NCBI RefSeq assembly: GCF_032362555.1
Contig: NC_083516.1
Coordinates: 2,443,001 to 2,507,000 of the forward strand
Direction of reading: 5' to 3'
Origin: Amyelois transitella
Taxonomy: Eukaryota > Arthropoda > Insecta > Lepidoptera > Pyralidae
DNA: 64,000 nt
Every line of letters begins with the position of its first letter. Position 1 is the stretch's first letter. Positions 3,187-62,165 of this stretch are shown in pieces. A model generated the notes under the pieces. It did not search any database and was not told where the DNA came from. It saw only the letters and a list, made by a program, of their open reading frames with translations. Position numbers and translations under genes: made by a program.

Positions 3187-3764
3187 TTAATGATAAATTT
3201 GATATTTAAATGGTGACAGGTTGCCCACCCCAATAAGATTATATATAATACAGGTACATATGTAGTTAGAGCATGTAACGTATCTTTATTTTATTTCAGA
3301 CGTTTCGAGTCATGTAACAATGATCCGTGGTCACCGAGCGACTGTTTAAGGATAATTACAGTCGTTCTTCCCCAAATCGGCATTAAAACTATTTAGCTTT
3401 ACGTAACTGAAATTTAATTTTAATTATAATGTAATACATGCTGCAATGCTTCCTCTGTACTTTAGAAACAAGTACGGTTATGAAGTTTTGTACTCATTAA
3501 AAATAAATTCAGTATAGGTAGCGTTAGGCCACATTTATAAAAATTAATTTCATAGGTCAGAAAAACGTATAGGTATTAAAAGCAATTCAAGCAGTATTTT
3601 CCTTAATAACTTCAACTCCACAACAACCCAAACTAAGAATTAGAAATAGTTAGTAGTAAATTATAAGTAAATTTAAATAAACTATTTTTACCATTACTTA
3701 TCTCATCATACTCGTAAAAATTCAAATAACACAGCACTGTGTAACTTAAATACATACATACATA

Positions 3765-6070: not shown

Positions 6071-9000
6071 ATGAACGATAAAGATTCCAACTTCGAATAT
6101 GAATATTTAAGATGGTGCGTGGACAGTGACAGGAGAATAAGGACAGATTTGAAAAACCATAATTGGTTATTAATGAAGATAGCTACACGTAACGAGTTGG
6201 AAAATATGAGGGCCCGACAGACTATTCTGAGGCCAGGTCCCGAAAATATGAAAAGCCCGCCAAAAAGAAGAGCAAGTTTGCCAATATCCCTTCCAATTTC
6301 ACTGTAAGTTTGTTAATTATTTATATTTATTTGTGCTTAATTTATTTTTGCGAAGCAATTGTCTCATATTGTTTATTACAAAGTGATTTTTCTTTTAGTT
6401 TTCAATATAAAATTTGTTGCTTTTTCATTACTTCGCATGCGCGATTTTTAATATGAATTTGATTATGATAAAATTTTTAATATTTGGAGCTTTCGGGCCA
6501 AAATACGGCAAGCGTATATATCTAAAACTTATTTTACAAATAAGTAAAATAAAATCTCATCCAAAAAATATGTTTTCTTTGTCAAATATATTAAATATAT
6601 AAAAATAAAACAATTGCATGTCAGTTATCTGCTTATCTGCTTGTCTGCTAGTTAGCTTGTCTGCTTGTCAGCTTGTATGCTAGTCAGCTTGTCTGCTTGT
6701 CTGCTTGTCTGCTTGCCTGCTTGCCTGCTTGTCTGCTTGTCAGCTAGTCAGCTAGTCAGCTTGTCTGCTTGTCTGCTTGTCTGCTTGTCTGCTTGTCTGC
6801 TAGTCTGCTTGTTAGCTTGTCTCCTTGTCTGCTTGTCAGCTAGTCAGCTTGTCAGCTTGTCTGCTTGTCAGCTTGTCTGCTTGTCTGCTTGTCTGCTTGT
6901 CTGCTTTGCTGCTTTACTGCTTTTCTGCTTTTCTGCTTGTCTGCTTGTCTGCTTGTCTGCTTGTCTGCTTGTCTGCTTGTCTGCTTGTCTGCTTGTCTGC
7001 TTGTCTGCTTGTCTGCTTGTCTGCTTGTCTGCTTGTCTGCTTGTCTGCTTGTCTGCTTGTCTGCTTGTCTGCTTGTCTGCGTGTCTGCTTGTCTGCTTGT
7101 CTGCTTGTCTGCTTGTCTGCTTGTCTGCTTGCCTGCTTGCCTGCTTGCCTGCTTGCCTGCTTGCCTGCTTGCCTGCTTGCCTGCTTGTCTGCTTGTCTGG
7201 ATGTCTGCTTGTCTGCTTGTTGCTTGCTATTTGGGTCCGTTTGTATAATTTATTATATAAAAATTAGTGTATAATAATAATAATTGACTTACGCACTTGC
7301 AACAAAATATACATATTTGTCTTCATATTTCAGTTCACATTTACATTAAATACCTAATCTTAATTTGCAAAAGTGTTTTTGCCTTCGTTATTTTTATACT
7401 ACATATTTCTTATTGTGTTAAAATATTTCTCAATAACAATATGTCACACTATATAACTAGCTTGGTTACTTAATACGTATTTTCGTGATAAATTTTTAAC
7501 AAATGCTGTGCTTTTCTTTTCAGGTACCAAAAATATATAAATGTAGCGAATTCACAGAAAGAAAAAGATTTCATGAAGCAATCGACAAATAAATTATCAC
7601 ACTCTATTGTTGATAAAATATCACTGGCTAAAATCAAAATTTCGTCTAAAATTATAAAATCCACTCAAGAAAATAAAAAAGAAACCGTAAATCCTCTCGC
7701 TAAGAACATCAACGATAAAAAATCAAATGAAATAAGCTCTAAAGGAGAAATTAATCCAATGGAGTTCAAATTATCCCATTTAAATTCTGTACACGAAACC
7801 AAAAACAAAGATATATTGACAAGAAAAATAAATGCCGTTGAAACTTGTGATATAGCTACTCAAATAGATATATCAACACAAACTAATAGCGCTATTATCG
7901 ACAGAAGTGACCTAGAATTGTTAAATGCTTTAAAAAAATATGGTTATACAACAGACGATATAGAATCTTTTTATCAAAATTCAATCAAAAATAATAACAA
8001 TACTAGTGATTGCCAAAATTTAAATGAAATGGATGTAGATGAAAGTGAATATGAGACAAATGAAGATGAAATTAATGAAAAACTAACTGAAGAAGACACG
8101 AATAAAAGGAGTGAAGTAAAAGTAAATGATGGACAATGTGATACAAGGAAAGCAAACGGATTTACTTCTGACGATAAGAAAAACAAGAATGACTTGCCAA
8201 GCGTTATGAGTGGTACAATATTAGATAGACTACGAGCTTGTAGTGACTTAAACAAATTAATTTTAAGCACATTTTATGAGGGTATAAATCTTCATCAAAA
8301 TAAAGATTATGATAAAATACGGAGGAATAAAGAACTGTCTCAGCTCAGCCACTCTTTGGTTGACAAAATTTACCAAATGTTTATAGAATACATCGACAGT
8401 AAGACTAAAAATTTTAGTAAAGATCCTGAAATTATAGATCTTGTTAATGACTGTGAAGTTTTACCTAAAAAGAGAAAAATGGTGTCAGATTTCAGTGAAA
8501 AGGAAAAAAATCTTAGGATTAAAAATCTATACGTTATTTCAAAACAGCAAGAAGTGCAAACAATGAAAAAAGTCGTCCCACAAAATATGGCATTGAATCA
8601 AAATGCCGAACTACAGTGGAAACGGAATCCTATGGTGAGTGACAGCATACATAACGGATAACAGTGTCTATCAAATCAAAATTCTAATGAAAATCAAATT
8701 TATTTTTCACCTAAAATATTTTTTATAAGTAATAGATCGATCAATATTATCAAAAACATTTTTTTATTGCAGTTCCCGAATACCCATCCTGAAAGATCGG
8801 CATTCAGCTATAATCAAAAAGATCCAAGACTATCACGCTACTTCAACGCGACTCGGCAAGACCTGCACATGGATAATGTAGGGTATGATAGTTTAAATTA
8901 TCAAAGGGAGTCCCAAAACAGGGTTATTTATGGTCAATATGGGCAGCAGCATCAGAACCCACACCCACCGACATATTATGGACAGGGCAGACAGCAGAAC

Positions 9001-18722: not shown

Positions 18723-18862
18723 TATTTAGTTTGTGCGGTAACGGTTAACGTTTGACTGCCGGCTGAAATGTGAGCGAGAGTTCAGTGGGTCGAAAGGAAA
18801 GCCATGGAATTTGTATACCGCAGAATGTACCTAACAAACCATGCTATAATACTTTATACATA

Positions 18863-19113
18863 GATACATATAATCACGTCTATATCCCTTGCGGGGTACA
18901 CAGAGCCAACTGTCTTGAAAAGACTGATAGGCCACGTTCAGCTATTTGGCTATAAGATAGAATTTAGATTCAAATAGTGACAGGTTGCTAGCCCATCGCC
19001 TAAGAGAAGAATCCCAAGTTTATTAGCCTACCCCTTAGTCGCCTTTTACGACATCCATGGGAAAGAGATGGAGTGGTCCTATTCTTTTTTCTATTGGTGC
19101 CGGGAACCACATG
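18863..19113 (-). mobile_element. SL1, full length
   Basis: All SL1 blocks are present from the TATATCCCTTGCGGGGT hairpin to GGTGCCGGGAACCACATGGC. Confidence 0.75.
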
Positions 19114-44328: not shown

Positions 44329-47300
44329 CTATCCCATCAATCTAGGCTCCCTCGAGAGCATGTTGTTGAAGAACCTCATATTGTTAAACTTGTATCGGAA
44401 ACGGCCCTTCTTCTTCAGCCGCCCCATGTGCTGCAGGGTCCGGACCAGCGGCAGGAACCTGAACATGCCGTTCATCTCGTCTCCGAGGCAGAACATGAAC
44501 GAGGATTCGATGTAGGCTGCAACGATACAAAGAGAGAATCATCTTACTGGTACTGTGTTCTGGTAGAAGACAGGTAGGAACAAGACTCTAAAGCCAAATT
44601 AATGTGAATGATGGTGAGGCGATATCTCGACGCCACAAGTCACAGAAACAAAATCACGCGACGCTATCAGTAAAAAAGTGAAAAGTCTAAATCGCGCAAG
44701 CAAAGATTTTACGGTTTGGAGCATATGCACTCGATACAAACAAGTTGGAACTTATTGTTACTTTTGTTATTTGTTCTATTTATATTTTATTGTAAATTAT
44801 ATATATATTTTTTCTCTTTTTAGCTTAATACTATTGTTTATTGATGCCTTATAATTATTTAACTTACATATGTAATTATAGGTCTACTTTAGAAGAGCGG
44901 AATCTCCAAACACAAGTGCATTATGCATTTAAATGGAGGCTCCTGCCACTAATTTGTTACCCGCTTGTAAGTTACTTAATAAATATTTTTCATTTTTCAT
45001 TTTTTCATATACAATCTTAGACACAACAGGCCGCCAGGCGTCACACCTAGCCTGGAGACAGATCTTCCCTTTGGTGGTGGTCGAGCCGAATCATCGCTCC
45101 CGCTACAATTGATTTATAATGGAATTGTGCCGTTTAAGATAATAATCGAGGTTTCGCCATGATGAACACGAGAAATACATACATACATATAATCACGTCT
45201 ATATCCCTTGCGGGGTAAACAGAGCCAACAGTTTTAAAAAGACTGATATGCCACGTTCAGCTGTTCGGCTTAACGATAGAATTGAGATTCAAAAAAGTGA
45301 CTAGCTGCTAGCCTAAAGTAGGTAGTACTTGAAATCAGAGAAGATTTTCTTTCAAAAGGAATGGTTTAGTTTTATATCTTCCATGGTGTGAAATGAACTT
45401 TGCTGAAGAGTAGCTTATTATAAGTTTTAAGTACCTCTAGAATCCTCGTTTGATAACTTTTATTAAAGCGATTTATTTTTCAAAGTTGCTTGTTTGATAC
45501 GAGTAATTGGTTCAGTGCCAGCTATAGTACCTACTAAGGTCACAGTATCTTATTCAAATCGTCGTAGGGATAGAATATTTTAATTTGAGCCTCATCTACG
45601 CTTCAAAGACCAAGGTCTACATTCCTATTTTTTTTAAATAAGGTCTTCCGGTTCTTTTCTTTTACAATTATTTAAATCTGCCCGTAGTATCTGTGGACGT
45701 GCATCGAAACAAAGAGAGAGGATAAAGAATTATGCTTTCAAAAACTATGATCCGCTTTTGGACATTTCTCTCTCAATTTGAACTGATCTTTCGCTATTTT
45801 ACTTTAGTGTATCAAAATAAAATATTTATTAAGATAAAATAGTATAATAATCCCATGGAATTGAATCCCCAGAACGGCTAGTTTTTAATATTTTCTTTGA
45901 CGGCGCGACACTGAATTAGTGCCAGACATTTTTTGTGTGTTAAAGATTATTGCCCTGAAGCCTACCAGGTGCTCCGCTTCAAAGAGCCCTCTCCTTTGTC
46001 TGCTTTCGCAATATTTTCTTAGTTTCATCAAGCTGTTTCTTAATGAAATAGTTTCATTATAATTGATTCTTAAGATATTTCTAAGGTTAAAAATATACTT
46101 GGTCTTTTTATACCGTTAAATTCTTCATCACGTGGAAGTGTTATGTTTTCAATTTTTAAACCGCTTCAAAGCTTACGACGTGGTAAACATCACGATTACC
46201 TCTAAAGTACAGATTTATCTTTCTATTTAAACTTAAAAGCACGTCAAACGAAAATAATATTTTCCGCTCTCTTGAAAAATTGAGAAGAAATGAAATAAGT
46301 ACATATTTCTTGTACGTACCTACATTTTTATAAGATTATTATTTCCTGCATGCACTTTCCGCCTCGCTGGTCTATGGTGATTGGCGAGTGAGCGTTTGCA
46401 ATATTTTCCGAGTGCAATCAAACGATCAAAATTGCCTCTTATTTGCGAAACTTATCCTATAATCTTATTTTAAGTTTTCGCGTTGCATATAATACTATTT
46501 ATATATAAAACAGGTAATTAACGCGCGCGTAATGTACCTTTATTTATGTCGGACATTTAGAATTATGTTTGCAACCGATCAAGGTGGATATCTATAGAAA
46601 GGTCTATGTTCAGCAAATTGTGCATCTCACCATCTTGAAGTGAATCGTTTCTCCGAAAATGAGAGACGCTTTAAGTTAAGTAAAGACGTTAGGTAGAAAG
46701 CCAGAATTTTTTAAATATATATATATATATATTTAATATTTATTAAATATGTATATACATTTTTTTTTTATTTTTATAAATTTATATAACATTGGTGTCG
46801 TGATACCTAGTACCTAGGCCCATTATTTAGCATACCTGAGCTCTCAGCGGTGGAACTCTTGTCTTCCCAGAACATCTTGCACTGCGCGATGTCCATGAAG
46901 CAGTGGTTCTGGAACATGAGGCTGGGCTCCCTCGCAACGTTGCCCGGCATGCCGCACACGGGAGCGTACGTGTCTGGACATTTCTGGTCAAAATATATAT
47001 ATATATTTTTTTTTGTTAATTTGTTATGCCTTGTGCCGTGTGGTTCCCGGCACCAATACAAAAAAGAATAGGACCATTCCGTCTCTTTCTCATGGATGTC
47101 GTAAAAGGCGACTAAGGGATAGGCTTACAAACTTGGGATTATTTTTAGGCGGTGGGCTAGCAACCTATCACTATTTGAATCTCAATTCTATCATTAAGCT
47201 AAATAGCTGAACGTGGCCATTCAGTCTTTCCAAGACTGTTGGCTCTGTCTACCCCACAAGGGATATTTAGTTTTCTTTATTACCAAATAACTAAATAAAT

Positions 47301-52997: not shown

Positions 52998-55900
52998 ATG
53001 TCTTTCAAACCAGAAATAGTGAAACCTAAGACTGTAAAACTTTTCGAATTAGATAACTTCGAAAAGCTGCTAAAAGGACTGAACGTTGCCACATGCATGC
53101 TTACAGAGTCACACCAAGTTGGTAAGCCATAAGCCTTTATTCCCTGTCTGCTACAATAGTAAATTATATAAGAAATTATTCGTGCCTATTTAGAAATAAC
53201 CTCAATAAAAAACTTCGTTAAATCTTTGAATTTTCACAATTACAAATTATTTCCCTTCATGAAGGAAACTGGTAGTCTAGAGCTGTTGAAACCAGTTAGT
53301 GCAATTCAGCGAATACTGTTGTATGTCAATAAATGTATATTTATGTTCTTAACTTTCTGACTCATAAAATTGCACCACATTATTTTCTCCATGTGTGTGT
53401 TATATTTCATTAAGTATTAATAAATATTATATGTATTTCATTTATTTAACTAAGATGGTTGTAAAACTAAGCACTGTGCAGTGCCAAAAATGGCACTTTA
53501 CTTCTAATTTTTGACATAAATGTTGTAGTGTTTTATTTAATGACTAGGTTTCATCATAAAAAATGTGATAACAAAATTATAAAAGAAACAACAAAAGAAA
53601 AAATTGTTGTCTTTTCAACTTTATGGTCCCACTGCCAAATGCCTTTATAATCATAAACATTTTTCAGTTGATGAACAAAGTGTAATACGTCGTCTAAGTG
53701 CATTAACCCTGAATGGTCCATCGGATGGCAACTGTTGCTCGTGCTGTGGTGTTGGTCCATTTGACACGAGGGCCCAGCAGACAGCGCATTACAAACATCA
53801 TTGGCATAACCACAATCTTAAGCGGAAGCTGTTTGGGAAGGCTCCCTTGTCATTAGGACAGTTTAATTCTAGGCAAGGTATGGTCAACTTTATTTTATTA
53901 TATTTTAACCTTAGTACATATTAATTTTATAATTATGAAAGTGTGTCTGTTTGTCCAACACTTTCATGTCAAAACCACTAAACTGAACTTCATAAAATTT
54001 TGCATAGATATCAAGTGAAGTATTTAAAAAGACTTATTGGTAAAATATTTAAATTGACTTAGATGCATTTGGAGCCATGAGCTAAAAGCTAGTAATTATA
54101 TATAAGGGAAAGGTTAATCAATGAACTTTTGTTTTTTTTACTGAATGCATAATAACTTACTCAATTGTGTACAGTTACTTACTTAACATTTCAAACTTCT
54201 GTGTGATATAGCTATTGCCTTTAGTTATTATTCCAGTCTTGTCGTACAGAAAATAAAATACAGTCCTTTTTTTAAGTGACCCAGAAAATTATTCATAAAT
54301 ATTGTAATAATAACAGATAATCGTGTTTACAATATTTGTTAATCCAAATGTTACAGATGATTCCAGTGTCTCAGGGTCAGACTCCGAGTCGGAGGAGCCG
54401 AGCAGCAACCCAGCTAGCGATCTGTTTGCTGCGGCCACCAGGCATTGCAAGGCTTTCTTCACCAACAAGAAGGGACAGGTCTTCTGTATCTACAGGTGCA
54501 TACTGCATCATAGAAAGGTACCTTGGGAAATTGAATATTAAGTAATGTCATTGTCAGATTCGGCATAGTGCTGTATATGGGTAATATTCTTTACACTCCG
54601 TGAATAAAATGTGATTTGGATCAGATAAAGTCATCTAAATATACTTTTTTATCTGTCACCTGCAGGAGGAGTTGTCGACTGATGGCGACGGTAGCGCATG
54701 GGTAGAACGGTGTGAGCGTCTCATCATCCCCGGCTACCAACGCTGGGCTGTCGTCATGGTCTCCGGAGGACACTTCGCAGGAGCTATATTCTCTGGGGCT
54801 GTACCCGTAGTGCACAAGACCTTCCACTCTTATGTGACTAGAAGAGGCCAGGGGCAAGCTCAAGGGACGAGGGATAACCATGGAAGTGCACCAAGATCAG
54901 CCGGTGCAAGTTTGAGGAGATATAACCAGGCTCAGTTTTTGGAGGTCAGCTTTAATTCGGCTTTAGATATTCATATTTACATTTACAATATTAGAGATAC
55001 TGTTGCATTGAAGGGAAGTAAATAGTGAGAAACAGAACATGTTACATTTAGAAAACTGAATGCTGGTTTAGGCTCATTAACAGCGCCATGTAATAAAACT
55101 GGTATTGCTCTGTCCAACATCTGATTTGAGGTCAAATTACTATGACTAATGTCAGGAAGAAGAGGTATAATGATCAATAATGATCAGCCCCCATAACATA
55201 AACGCTTGCGACGCCGTTTTTATCGCGCGATACACTATCTCTGTCCCGTTTCACGTCATAATAAATCGTTACAGAGATAGTATTTCTGCAGTGGCTGTTT
55301 GACAAGATTTTAAGTAATGCTCCTGTAAGCTAGCTATTAATCGTATAACTATTTATTTCAGCATGTACAAGAAATAATGGCATCATGGACTGAAGACTTG
55401 GTTGGCTGTTCTTTGATTCTATACAGGGCAGTGGGCTCCACCAACCAAGCGGCCATCTTTGGGAAGAACTCACCATTAAACCGAGACGATTTGAGAGTCC
55501 GTCCGTTGCCATTCCCAACGAAGAAACCTACTTATAAGGAGGTCAGGAGAGTGCATGAGACTATAGCCAGTGTTGAAGTGTATGGTTAGTATATTTTTTA
55601 TTATATGTTGTTAAGTAATATCTGGTTTTTAAATGTCGAAATAAGTGCGCCATACAAAGTCTTACATGCAAATGTTCCGCCTTCATTGTCTCAAGATGTT
55701 AAACAATTCTTATGGGACTCCACTAATTATTCAGGTATCCATTTACCAGTTACTACCAGGTTCCTCTGGTGTTAAGCGGTTACCATATTCCATGGACCTC
55801 TTGTTCATCTACAAGAAACACCAATGTTTACGTATTGATTAATATTTTTTTATTATTTTCTTTTAGACACCATGGAATTGTTCCAAAAAGCGCTGATAGC

Positions 55901-58900
55901 TTCCACAGCTAAGAGTACCACGAAAACTGTTCCCTCAGACACCAGTATAGAGAAAAAGAAGAGTACGCCAAGTAAACCCATAGACAGGGCAAAATCCAGG
56001 TAATTTCTTATTATTAAAATATTAATACAATTAAAAATTTATTTTACATAGAGCAATACTAATTCGATTAGTTTTTAATTTTTTTATTATATTTTGATAT
56101 TAAGTAATTCTTTTTAATGATTAAAATTAATAGATAATATTTACAAAAATTATATGCACACTTGCATCAGCAACAGGCCTCGTCTAAATTGCGTGTTTTC
56201 TCAAACAGTGATTATGTTTCATGAAAAAAAGGTAACAAAAATATTCGTTCATTAATTTAAAAAATCTGGATGACAATTTCCGGAAAAATTAAACACACAT
56301 CATTTTTATATCTCTAGAGAGCGCACACCACGAGAATTACCCACCCAAATAATGTCGAGCGAAGACGAGGGTCCGTGTTACATTGACTCGGAAACACCAG
56401 TAGATTGGATCAAAACTCTTTCAGAACAAAGCAAGAAAGGCGTCATAACTAACTCGAGGAAAGATCTACTGAACGATTGCAATGTGCCGCGTCCGATAAG
56501 CTCTGAGAGTGAGAACGAAGTCGAAAAGAGAGAGGTGAAAAAGAAGAAGAAGAAAAAGCCGGAGAAGAGTGAAGAGAAGTTGGTTAAGAAGCCACAGCCA
56601 CAGAAAATTTCGACGAATATTAAAAAGGTATTTATTTTACAGTGTTAAATTTTAGGCCGAATTTTACAATAATTACAATTAAAAAAAACACAGGCAAGTG
56701 CGAGAAAATGTGAAATATACTAAATTCTCTTTATACTTAATAGAAATCAAAGAAGTAAATTGTAAGTAGGTATCTATAATTTTTCCTTTGTGTATTCGAG
56801 GTGATACAAAACATGCACAGGTACAAATCCCACCCTGGTTATTAAGTAAGAGCATTGGTTACTATACCAATGCTCTTACGGTGAGGGAAAACATCGTGAG
56901 GAAACCTGTATATTTAGAAACTAGATTCATAACCATGAATCCAATACGGGTTAAGTTTACCTGCAAAGGTTTCGTAAGTAAGATCGCTTCATGTAAAAAC
57001 CTGATTCACCAAGTCCAGGATACGAGGTCAAAGGCATACCCCGGGCTCCTTTTCAGAGTGATGAGGATGCAACCGGGTCTAAAGCCAGGAAGAAAAAGTT
57101 AGTGAACATGTAGTAGATGAGTTAATAATTGAGAATCTTCTACATAAACATACATACAGTCATACGCAGAGCCAAGAGTTTAGTGTAATATTTTGGCTCA
57201 GATGTGGAAACTAATATCCGGCGCCGAGTGTACATCGCTGGAGACCATTCTAGAAGAGTTCGAGGTCAACGAACTGGAAGCAGCGTGCAACACTCAGGAC
57301 CCGGCAGATGGCAACACTGCGCTGCACAAAGCGGCCATTGCAGCCAAACCTGAGATTGTCACGTGAGTTTTCAAAGAGACTTGAAATAGTTTGACCAGAT
57401 AAGTATAGCAGACCTCGCCATATTGCGGCCAAAAAAGTGAATTAAAATATTGAGCTGGCAATAATTAATCAAAAACCAGTAAGCATAACCCAACGCTAAT
57501 AAGAAGTCGGCTTTGTTAATGATTCTTATTAAAATCTTCAAAATGCCAACTTCCTATAGAAGATTCTAAAACAGGCTTGCATAAATTTGACAAAAGAGCA
57601 GTAATATCACTCAATACGACTATAAAATTCAAATATTTTCTGTCAGTGCCGAAGAAATCGTTAACAAACTGCACTGTAGCATTTTCTTCGTTGTTGAAGA
57701 AAATGCTGCATTGCAGTTTGTTACCGGTTCTTCTGCACTGACGCCTTGGAAGCGGTAGTAAACTTAGTTTTAAGTATTTGACGTCAACCAATGTTGTTAA
57801 ACCATACGTTTTGACAATTATTAAGCGATATGAAGTATCCTGTAATAATGAATAAAAAATTTTGAATTGAATTTGAATTCAATAAAGTCAAGTTCACAAT
57901 ATTTGCCGGTGCCGCCAGCCAACTGTTGACCGCCGGCGGCGACCCGTGCGTCCGGAACCACGTGCTGCAGACGCCGTACTCGGCCACCCCCCACGTGGAA
58001 ACCAGGGTGGCCTTCAGACTGTTCCAGGGGCGGTACCCGGACAAATATAACTATGCTAAGGTGAGATTTATTTCAAAATTGTAAATAGTTTCGTACACAA
58101 TTACAGTATTACCACTTCTATAAGTTACACCGATGTATGCGCATGCATTTTGTTTGCCGCGAAAATATTCGAGCGATTGAGCCTATCAGAGAACAAGTTA
58201 ACGCGAATTTGTATGTGATTTGATCAGCGCCACCTAGTAGTAACGCGATGGCACTAATGCAATTCTATAAAAATTCGTGATAACTTGCTCGACGCGTTTG
58301 ATCGAGTAAAACTCGCAAATATATTATCTGAAACTGAACTGTACTCTATAATATTGTGCTACTTTTGTGAGCGAGATAGCAGGAGATATTTTGTTATTAG
58401 GATTTTAACTTTAATGTAATTGTAATAAGGTCCTTATTGTATTGAGCTTTTTCGGCGATAGGTTTCGCTATTCGGCGCCGTCGAATATTGACCGGGCGAC
58501 TTATTAAGTTTTGATATCAACGAGACGTGCAGAGCACTGAGGAATTAACAACCTAGTTACTTCTGAAAGTCTGTCTGTTGTGTTGTATTTTGACTTTAAA
58601 ACTGTTCTCGGACCATTCTTTGACTTATAAAGACTTCGACAAAATAAGTTTTCACCCTTTCGTGTTCAGCCGATATATGACTAAAAATTATATCGTTGAT
58701 GGTAAAACTTTCAGTTATTTATGCGTTATTTATTACAGACAAAAATAATAAATATCAAGTTTTATGTAATGATCAGTTAACAATGTTAATTTTTATATGC
58801 AGTCACAAATCCCCGGGCCCATAACCCCGGAACTTCTAGAACAAGAGAAGGAGAGGAAAGCGCAGCAGAAGCGTGCGAAGAGACAACGCGACAAGGAGAA

Positions 58901-60597: not shown

Positions 60598-60895
60598 TGA
60601 ATAGGCTATTTGACAAAGTTCTAAAAACTATCTTAGGGTATTTATTTGTTTTAAAGGAGCCCTACAAAAATACTTTTCTGCCTTTATTACAGCTATTTTA
60701 TTAAAAAATCGAAAAAGAAAATGAAATATTCAAATATGCCGCCAAAACGCGACTTTTAGCAATATGGCGGCCATGGCATGCAGTGACGTAAATTTCGTGT
60801 AAATATCATACAAAGTATGTTGGTGTTTCGAAAAGTTTTGATTTTCTCTTGTTTTATTTAACTTGTGCCACGTCATATGTGTGAAAATTATTGAA

Positions 60896-61024
60896 ATGAG
60901 TTCCTATAAATGTTGTGCAGTGCCTCAGTGCACTAATACAACAATCAAATCTCCTACGAAACTGTTTTTTTCTATGCCCATGGATTTGAATATTCGCAAG
61001 AAGTGGTTTCTGATCATGATCTAA
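60896..61024 (+). pseudogene. THAP-domain ORF, truncated
   Basis: 42 codons: an N-terminus with KCCAVPQCTN (the C-x4-C pair of the THAP zinc finger), KLFFSMPMD and RKKWF in the right order and spacing for the first half of a THAP DNA-binding domain. It then runs into LIMI and stop instead of the second C/H pair, so it cannot fold as a full domain. THAP domains are found at the N-terminus of P-element and Kolobok transposases. Confidence 0.6.
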
Positions 61025-61051
61025 GATCTGTGGTTACGAAAATATACTTAC

Positions 61052-61179
61052 ATTGATGTTTTCACATTCCTCAGTTCGGCAGCATAGAAATCTGGATTGT
61101 CTTTGAAGAAGGCGCCAACCATTATTGCGTCCACTTTTAGTAGGTTTCGACTGTCAGCTTTCGCGGAATTGGTTTCCAT
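61052..61179 (-). pseudogene. First exon of a YqaJ-like gene, orphaned
   Basis: From ATG 61177-61179 the minus strand encodes METNSAKADSRNLLK, then KVDAIMVGAFFKDNPDFYAA and ELRNVKTS, ending at a good GTAAGT donor (61051-61046). The V-D-x-x-M-V-x-x-F-F-x-x-N-P-D-F-x-x-x-E pattern is what I recall from the N-terminus of insect proteins with SWIM and YqaJ nuclease domains. No later exon exists before the element's THAP half begins, so it is cut off. The family call rests on memory of the motif. Confidence 0.45.
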
Positions 61180-61924
61180 TATTAAATACCTATGTTATCT
61201 GAGTAATCCTGAGCGATCAAACACTTATAAAATCTTAAAAAATAATAGCGAACACTAAGGAACGGTACGATCCACAGTCTGTTTATGGATAATTGACGTC
61301 ATAATAGAAATAGCCAATCACGTTCGTTTTTAGTCACGTGACAGCTGCATATAAAAACCTAAATTTCTGAGACGGATTTTGTTAAAATAATGCAATATTT
61401 TTATCTCGCGTTATTACAAATCGCTCCAAAAAAATAATATTAAGACTGATGACATAAAAGAAATGTATATTTTTAATACAGTCAAATAGCCTATTCAAAG
61501 GTGTAAATAGAATAGAGAAACATTATATTATATATAAAAAAGGCAAAACTTAAATATGTAATGCAAGTGCAGAAATAAAAAAGTTTAAAGGAAGGCAATA
61601 AAAATAAAAATATACCTGTTTCACCTAAAAATATATCGTTTATATGAATGTTGCTTAAGTTTGGGCTTATTTGGTCTGTGTATGTATACTTGAGACTGTT
61701 GTGAACATGAAATAAATTATATACAATTTTTAATAACTTCTTTAATTTTTTTAGATAAGTTTTGTAGTGAAATCAATATTAGCGTAAGAGGTCGAAAGCA
61801 AAGCATCCAATGAATGGTTGGTAAATTATAACAGGTTCAATTTCTACTCGGGCTGTACCATGTACCCATGAATATTTCAGTTAAGTATACATATTTACAG
61901 GGTGTCTAGTAGATACACACACAT

Positions 61925-62165
61925 ACACATAAAATCACGTCTATATCCGTTGCGGGGTAGACAGAGCCAACAGTCTTGAAAAGACTGAATGGCCAAGTTC
62001 AGCTATTGGCTTAATGATAGAATTGAGATTCAAATAGTGACAGGTTGCTAACCCATCGCCTAAAAAAGAATCCCAAGTTTGTAAGCCTATCCCTTAGTCG
62101 CCTTTTACGACATCCAAGGGAAAGAGATGGAGTGGTCCTATTCTTTTTGGTGCCGGGAACCACTG
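61925..62165 (-). mobile_element. SL1, full length
   Basis: Plus strand runs from CACGTCTATATCCGTTGCGG to TTGGTGCCGGGAACCAC. Confidence 0.75.

Follow-up and report, generated by a model that had tools for sequence, protein, structure and literature searches.

Positions 60603-61492 of the window (the whole stretch of DNA analyzed here, 64,000 nt of the Amyelois transitella genome) almost certainly hold an ISL2EU transposon (PHIS/Harbinger-like superfamily) in a non-autonomous, MITE-like form, derived from a longer element by the loss of its middle part. The copy is short, contains no complete gene, carries the ends of a longer element and has many near-identical copies in the genome. We assign it to ISL2EU (PHIS superfamily) by published features and not by a tree; the short family to which it belongs is a new one within a known kind, provided that Repbase does not already list it.

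Two inverted arms of 17 nt, at 60598-60614 and 61481-61497, match each other perfectly across a spacer of 866 nt, and no further match to these arms with up to three mismatches was found within the 64-kb window. Comparison of copies places the borders of the element proper at 60603 and 61492 (890 bp, annotated on the plus strand). Its own inverted repeat is a perfect 12 bp, AGGCTATTTGAC, at 60603-60614 on the plus strand and at 61481-61492 on the minus strand. Of the 17 matching bases, the other five consist of the target AAT/ATT and of two letters that agree by chance: 60600-60602 is the target A with the left copy of the duplicated AT, and 61493-61495 the right copy with the target T, as judged from the copies and from empty AATT sites. 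The outermost TG/CA is peculiar to this insertion site, because other copies mostly have different letters there. The 17-bp ends described in the sequence-only reading are, therefore, exact as arms, but only 12 bp of them belong to the element.

We searched the genome of the same insect (327 Mb, 33 contigs) with the window element. The inverted ends are not a product of chance: all 40 scored matches, the window copy included, were near full length, with 97-100% identity, and the predicted co-occurrence of both ends at other loci was thus observed. These 40 came from 415 first-look candidates and are a lower bound on copy number, in which similar copies are favored since the best-scoring matches were taken. 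Thirty of the 40 were read. They measure 894-899 bp, target letters included, and diverge from the majority base by 1.18% on average (range 0.45-2.23), with a pairwise mean of 2.2%; the short family has probably spread recently.

A longer relative of the short copies was found through its YqaJ gene. A Pfam YqaJ family search of the genome gave 19 places, and one of them, L040, aligned with the right-hand arm of our element at 95% identity over 479 bp; another, L031, did so weakly (68% over 118 bp), and the other 17 gave no match. The stretch around L040, hereafter L050, contains both arms (left arm, query 1-413, 96.6% identical; right arm, query 420-898, 95.2%) and the same ends as the window element, and measures 4442 bp between the target letters, as counted from alignment coordinates. 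Its plus strand encodes a THAP domain (E 2.9e-10) followed by a 424-codon frame with DDE_Tnp_4 over the whole profile (E 2.3e-41); an HTH_Tnp_4 match is weak (E 0.0063; 16.5 bits, where the cut-off is 27). Its minus strand encodes YqaJ (E 1.2e-15), preceded by an exon 1 resembling the one in the window. The stop-free exon stretches are 65 (THAP), 424 (DDE), 409 (YqaJ) and 43 (exon 1) codons long. We infer from the donor and acceptor letters in L050 that THAP would be joined to DDE, and exon 1 to YqaJ, by splicing, giving two proteins. It had been proposed from the window alone that the copy is an internally deleted DNA transposon whose full form carries THAP and YqaJ genes in convergent arrangement, and L050 bears this out: it is a 4.4-kb copy in which both genes point inward, and it holds, between the same ends, about 3.56 kb that the window copy lacks. 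What did not hold is the THAP gene as a stand-alone DNA-binding protein; as in ISL2EU elements described before, THAP most likely forms the N-terminus of the DDE transposase, the splicing again being deduced from sequence. Since L050 differs from the window copy by 3-5%, it is a relative and not necessarily the parent.

The deletion junction of the window copy, with a few filler bases, lies at 61011-61016, between the two BLAST blocks against L050 (1-413 and 420-898), and the missing segment corresponds to L050 2093-5650, or about 3.56 kb. Single-letter changes aside, a search by junction word found the same junction in 29 of the 30 copies, the word being absent from L015. This common breakpoint points to one event, and it is most likely that a single deletion founded the short family. 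Other deletions seem to have occurred as well. A genome search with the internal 3.54 kb of L050 gave 43 matches from 40 scored of 65 candidates, among which the match is complete at L050 alone; 13 of the 43 share one inner end point (query 94), and six cover about 3322-3541. Nine of these loci were checked for ends with up to three mismatches. At five (L053, L054, L057, L059 and L060), both ends are present at a spacing of 1.06 to 2.1 kb, so that these look like other deletion products; no such end pair was found at L056 and L058, and no ends at L052 and L055.

Two pieces of genes remain in the window copy. On the plus strand, a THAP half-domain (MSSYKCCAVPQC...RKKWF) starts at 60896 and matches profile positions 1-34 of 87 in PF05485 (E 1.4e-4), with a score of 23 bits, just below the cut-off of 23.9; its sole match in PDB, up to E 10, was THAP11 (E 0.013). 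The frame can be aligned to L050, within the left arm, until about 61010, and 60896-61010 is annotated as the putative N-terminal half of the transposase-gene THAP domain; the open frame continues up to a stop ending at 61024. On the minus strand, an ORF at 61179-61048 opens with METNSAKADSRN and has a donor, AAT|GTAAGT, at 61051. By itself this ORF has no Pfam match; it resembles, however, the exon 1 adjoining the YqaJ gene in L050, which agrees with the earlier suggestion that the minus piece is the first exon of a YqaJ gene. We annotate the predicted coding exon 1 (METNSAKADSRN...NVKTS) at 61052-61179, with tblastn exon-1 matches at other YqaJ loci as additional evidence, and its splice donor GTAAGT, also present in L050, at 61046-61051, both on the minus strand.

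Target sites were read in the same 30 copies. AT flanks both ends in 29 of them, and AAT and ATT in 25; the exceptions to the longer pattern are L003, L010, L019, L020 and L030, with only L019 lacking AT. Two copies, L009 and L011, interrupt one and the same AATT within a common SINE-like repeat, the filled sites reading GATAG-AAT[element]ATT-GAGATTC in L009 (left side GATGG in L011) and the empty ones GATAG-AATT-GAGATTC. The joined flanks of L009 and L011 align gap-free across the site to many uninterrupted repeats, including those at 61927-62124 (plus strand) and 18861-19065 of the window; the joined-flank query carried AATT by construction, and the empty repeats of the genome also have AATT. 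For the other 28 copies, the joined flanks gave, under the same filter, a single alignment across the site, that of L022, which is weak (74% over 97 bases) and whose partner does not have AATT there. From the filled and empty SINE-like repeats, therefore, the insertion target is A|AT|T and AT becomes duplicated, the empty-site proof consisting of two insertions in one repeat family. The comparison of empty and filled sites, put forward earlier as a way to find the target duplication, thus gave AT within AATT.

The SINE-like repeat (GGGGTAGACAGAGCCAACAGTCTT...), which we take to be lepidopteran from its appearance, is frequent in the window: the L009 flanks matched 19 places of the window across the site, for instance, 18861-19065, 47085-47266 and 61927-62124. 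Elsewhere in the window, an exon of a VLRF1-type release factor gene, presumably Vms1/ANKZF1-like, lies at 54639-55022 on the plus strand (PF18826, E 1.6e-25). Frames at 53583-53924 and 56274-56648, neither with a Pfam match, perhaps belong to the same gene. A tandem repeat at 6656-7274 is open in all six frames (LVCLSACLLVC / KQTSRQAD) and is probably not a gene.

ISL2EU elements have been described from animal hosts, with an AT duplication in A|AT|T, a transposase combining DDE, HTH and THAP, a separate YqaJ exonuclease protein, a mean length of about 4.84 kb and terminal inverted repeats of 6-259 bp whose first two bases are usually GG (Han et al. 2015, PMC4482050). The present family resembles that description in its AT duplication within A|AT|T (29 of 30 copies with AT; two empty sites), in having THAP and DDE_Tnp_4 on the same strand of L050 (the splice that would join them being predicted), in a second gene with a YqaJ domain on the L050 minus strand, in the length of L050 (about 4.4 kb) and in a 12-bp repeat that falls within the published range (PMC4482050). 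It differs in that the window ends begin with AGG instead of the usual GG (PMC4482050), and in that the window copy is a non-autonomous deletion derivative. For the HTH part of the transposase, the L050 match gives weak support, below the profile cut-off. The authors of that transposase-based PHIS survey pointed out that it may miss MITEs (PMC4482050). A 2022 paper on fish describes the same pair of ISL2EU ORFs, one for a YqaJ exonuclease and one for a transposase that has HTH or THAP; to its authors' knowledge there was no reported proof of ISL2EU activity, and the paper itself reports expression (PMC9179366). ISL2EU and Lepidoptera are mentioned together in the literature, for example, in a paper on the pink bollworm (PMC4026531).

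PIF/Harbinger and Pangu share with this element a related DDE transposase superfamily (PHIS) and a two-gene plan. They duplicate, however, TWA or ANT instead of AT; the second gene of PIF/Harbinger is of the Myb/SANT type and not YqaJ, and the second ORF of Pangu is said to have no known motif in one passage of the survey and Myb/SANT in another (PMC4482050). A PIF/Harbinger identity was rejected on the AT duplication and the YqaJ second gene. In KolobokE, too, a DDD/E transposon is accompanied by a PD-D/ExK-type nuclease, but KolobokE duplicates TTAA and belongs to a separate lineage (PMC9587614).

The sequence-only reading went further than a deleted transposon and proposed a new class, defined by a THAP DNA-binding protein and a YqaJ nuclease, with no described element of that kind. 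In L050 the two genes are indeed turned toward each other, but its plus strand also holds a full DDE_Tnp_4 transposase domain, and the gene combination, together with the AT duplication, is that of the published ISL2EU description (PMC4482050). Since ISL2EU has been published with a THAP transposase and a YqaJ ORF, the claim of novelty fails and a new class, ruled out by these descriptions, is extremely improbable (PMC4482050, PMC9179366). In literature searches, no paper was found that joins Kolobok with YqaJ, or YqaJ with transposase and TTAA; nothing on YqaJ with Mutator and transposase looked relevant by title; and for any two of THAP, YqaJ and Lepidoptera, no such element appeared by title among the matches listed. 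An origin from a P element or from Kolobok can also be weighed. The transposases of both can carry THAP domains, and here a THAP half-domain adjoins an inverted end. P elements, however, have an 8-bp target duplication and the one found here is AT, while the transposase is of the DDE_Tnp_4 type. The target A|AT|T with AT duplicated is not the TTAA of Kolobok either (PMC9587614). On target site and transposase type, we rejected both origins and see virtually no chance for them.

It could also be argued that the THAP and YqaJ leftovers were kept by selection, for example, as a regulatory peptide or as a source of small RNAs that restrain the full element. Both frames are indeed full length or longer in 21 of the 30 copies, an altered start word being scored as a miss. 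However, variation in the pieces is no lower than in non-coding sequence (1.48% for THAP and 1.21% for YqaJ against 1.14% for the non-coding rest), and changes are not generally concentrated at third codon positions: at positions 1, 2 and 3, there are 9, 20 and 23 in the THAP piece and 20, 21 and 6 in the YqaJ piece. The family is also young; therefore, open frames are expected anyway. We consider selection very unlikely, and the retained pieces, whose rate of variation about equals that of the rest of the ISL2EU derivative, are best taken as neutral leftovers.

Other YqaJ-bearing elements exist in this genome. At 13 of the 19 YqaJ places, L040 included, the 1.5-kb flanks contain a relative of the L050 DDE exon, each time on the strand opposite to YqaJ; the flanks of L039 and L042 gave no DDE match. 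Exon-1 matches were obtained by tblastn at 12 of the 19 places, again with L040 included. Within these short flanks, a THAP exon was seen at one of the 19 (L049); the two additional stretches retrieved for L033 and L036 both contain it. The five copies L033-L037 share 98.3-99.9% identity along about 3.26 kb and have about 70% DNA identity to L043. Their YqaJ-side ends all read GGCCTATT, followed by unrelated flanks, and the THAP-side ends of this family start with AATAGGC (two ends read). L033-L037 form a second ISL2EU-type family, whose near-identity is a sign of recent movement.

The remaining four places, L044-L046 and L048, are only 26-28% similar in the matched YqaJ part and show no DDE relative; by sequence, we class them as a different kind from the ISL2EU-type loci. 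L044, L045 and L046 are located at G000:C12:1507735, C16:3263242 and C31:3956981, with L063-L066 grouped with them. In L044, a Mutator-like transposase domain (PF20700, 1.8e-81) and, after it, YqaJ (1.6e-11) share a single long frame. The three are about 98-99.7% alike in the longer aligned pieces, L045 carrying a deletion, and in the two copies with outer flanks fetched (L044 and L046) the ends read TTAA-GACTGCATCGAGCA... and ...TGCTCGGTGCAGTC-TTAA. KolobokE is described with a TTAA duplication, RR/YY ends and a downstream lambda-exonuclease-like nuclease (PMC9587614). Because the TTAA ends and the downstream nuclease fit that description, L044-L046 represent a probable KolobokE relative and, with it, a second, unrelated pairing of transposase and YqaJ. 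L048 is a distant YqaJ match in a 743-codon frame. A scan of viral contigs with the L050 DDE exon gave pattern matches in four stretches, none of which encodes a relative.

Most likely, a full ISL2EU element of about 4.4 kb lost about 3.56 kb of its middle once, and a few filler bases mark the gap; what survived is half of the THAP domain, YqaJ exon 1, the two ends and presumably the two promoters. The shortened molecule then spread, probably by cut-and-paste, to at least 40 places, with ISL2EU transposase presumably supplied in trans: the protein made elsewhere would recognize the 12-bp ends and nearby sequence, cut, and insert the molecule into A|AT|T, duplicating AT. This mechanism is suggested by the ISL2EU family, the target duplications and the copy number; THAP may bind the ends, and the YqaJ nuclease might have some role.

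By itself, the window element is ordinary; it belongs to a family of short, non-autonomous copies within a transposon group already described. The five 98.3-99.9% identical copies L033-L037 and the young swarm of short copies raise the possibility, a doubtful one at present, that ISL2EU is still moving in this insect, whose genome would then provide the first ISL2EU system of demonstrable activity. If ISL2EU is active here, the unexplained role of YqaJ would become testable, namely whether the nuclease is needed besides the transposase for the movement of a short element. The young short copies, together with the near-identical long ones, may thus be a modest practical lead to the role of the YqaJ nuclease.
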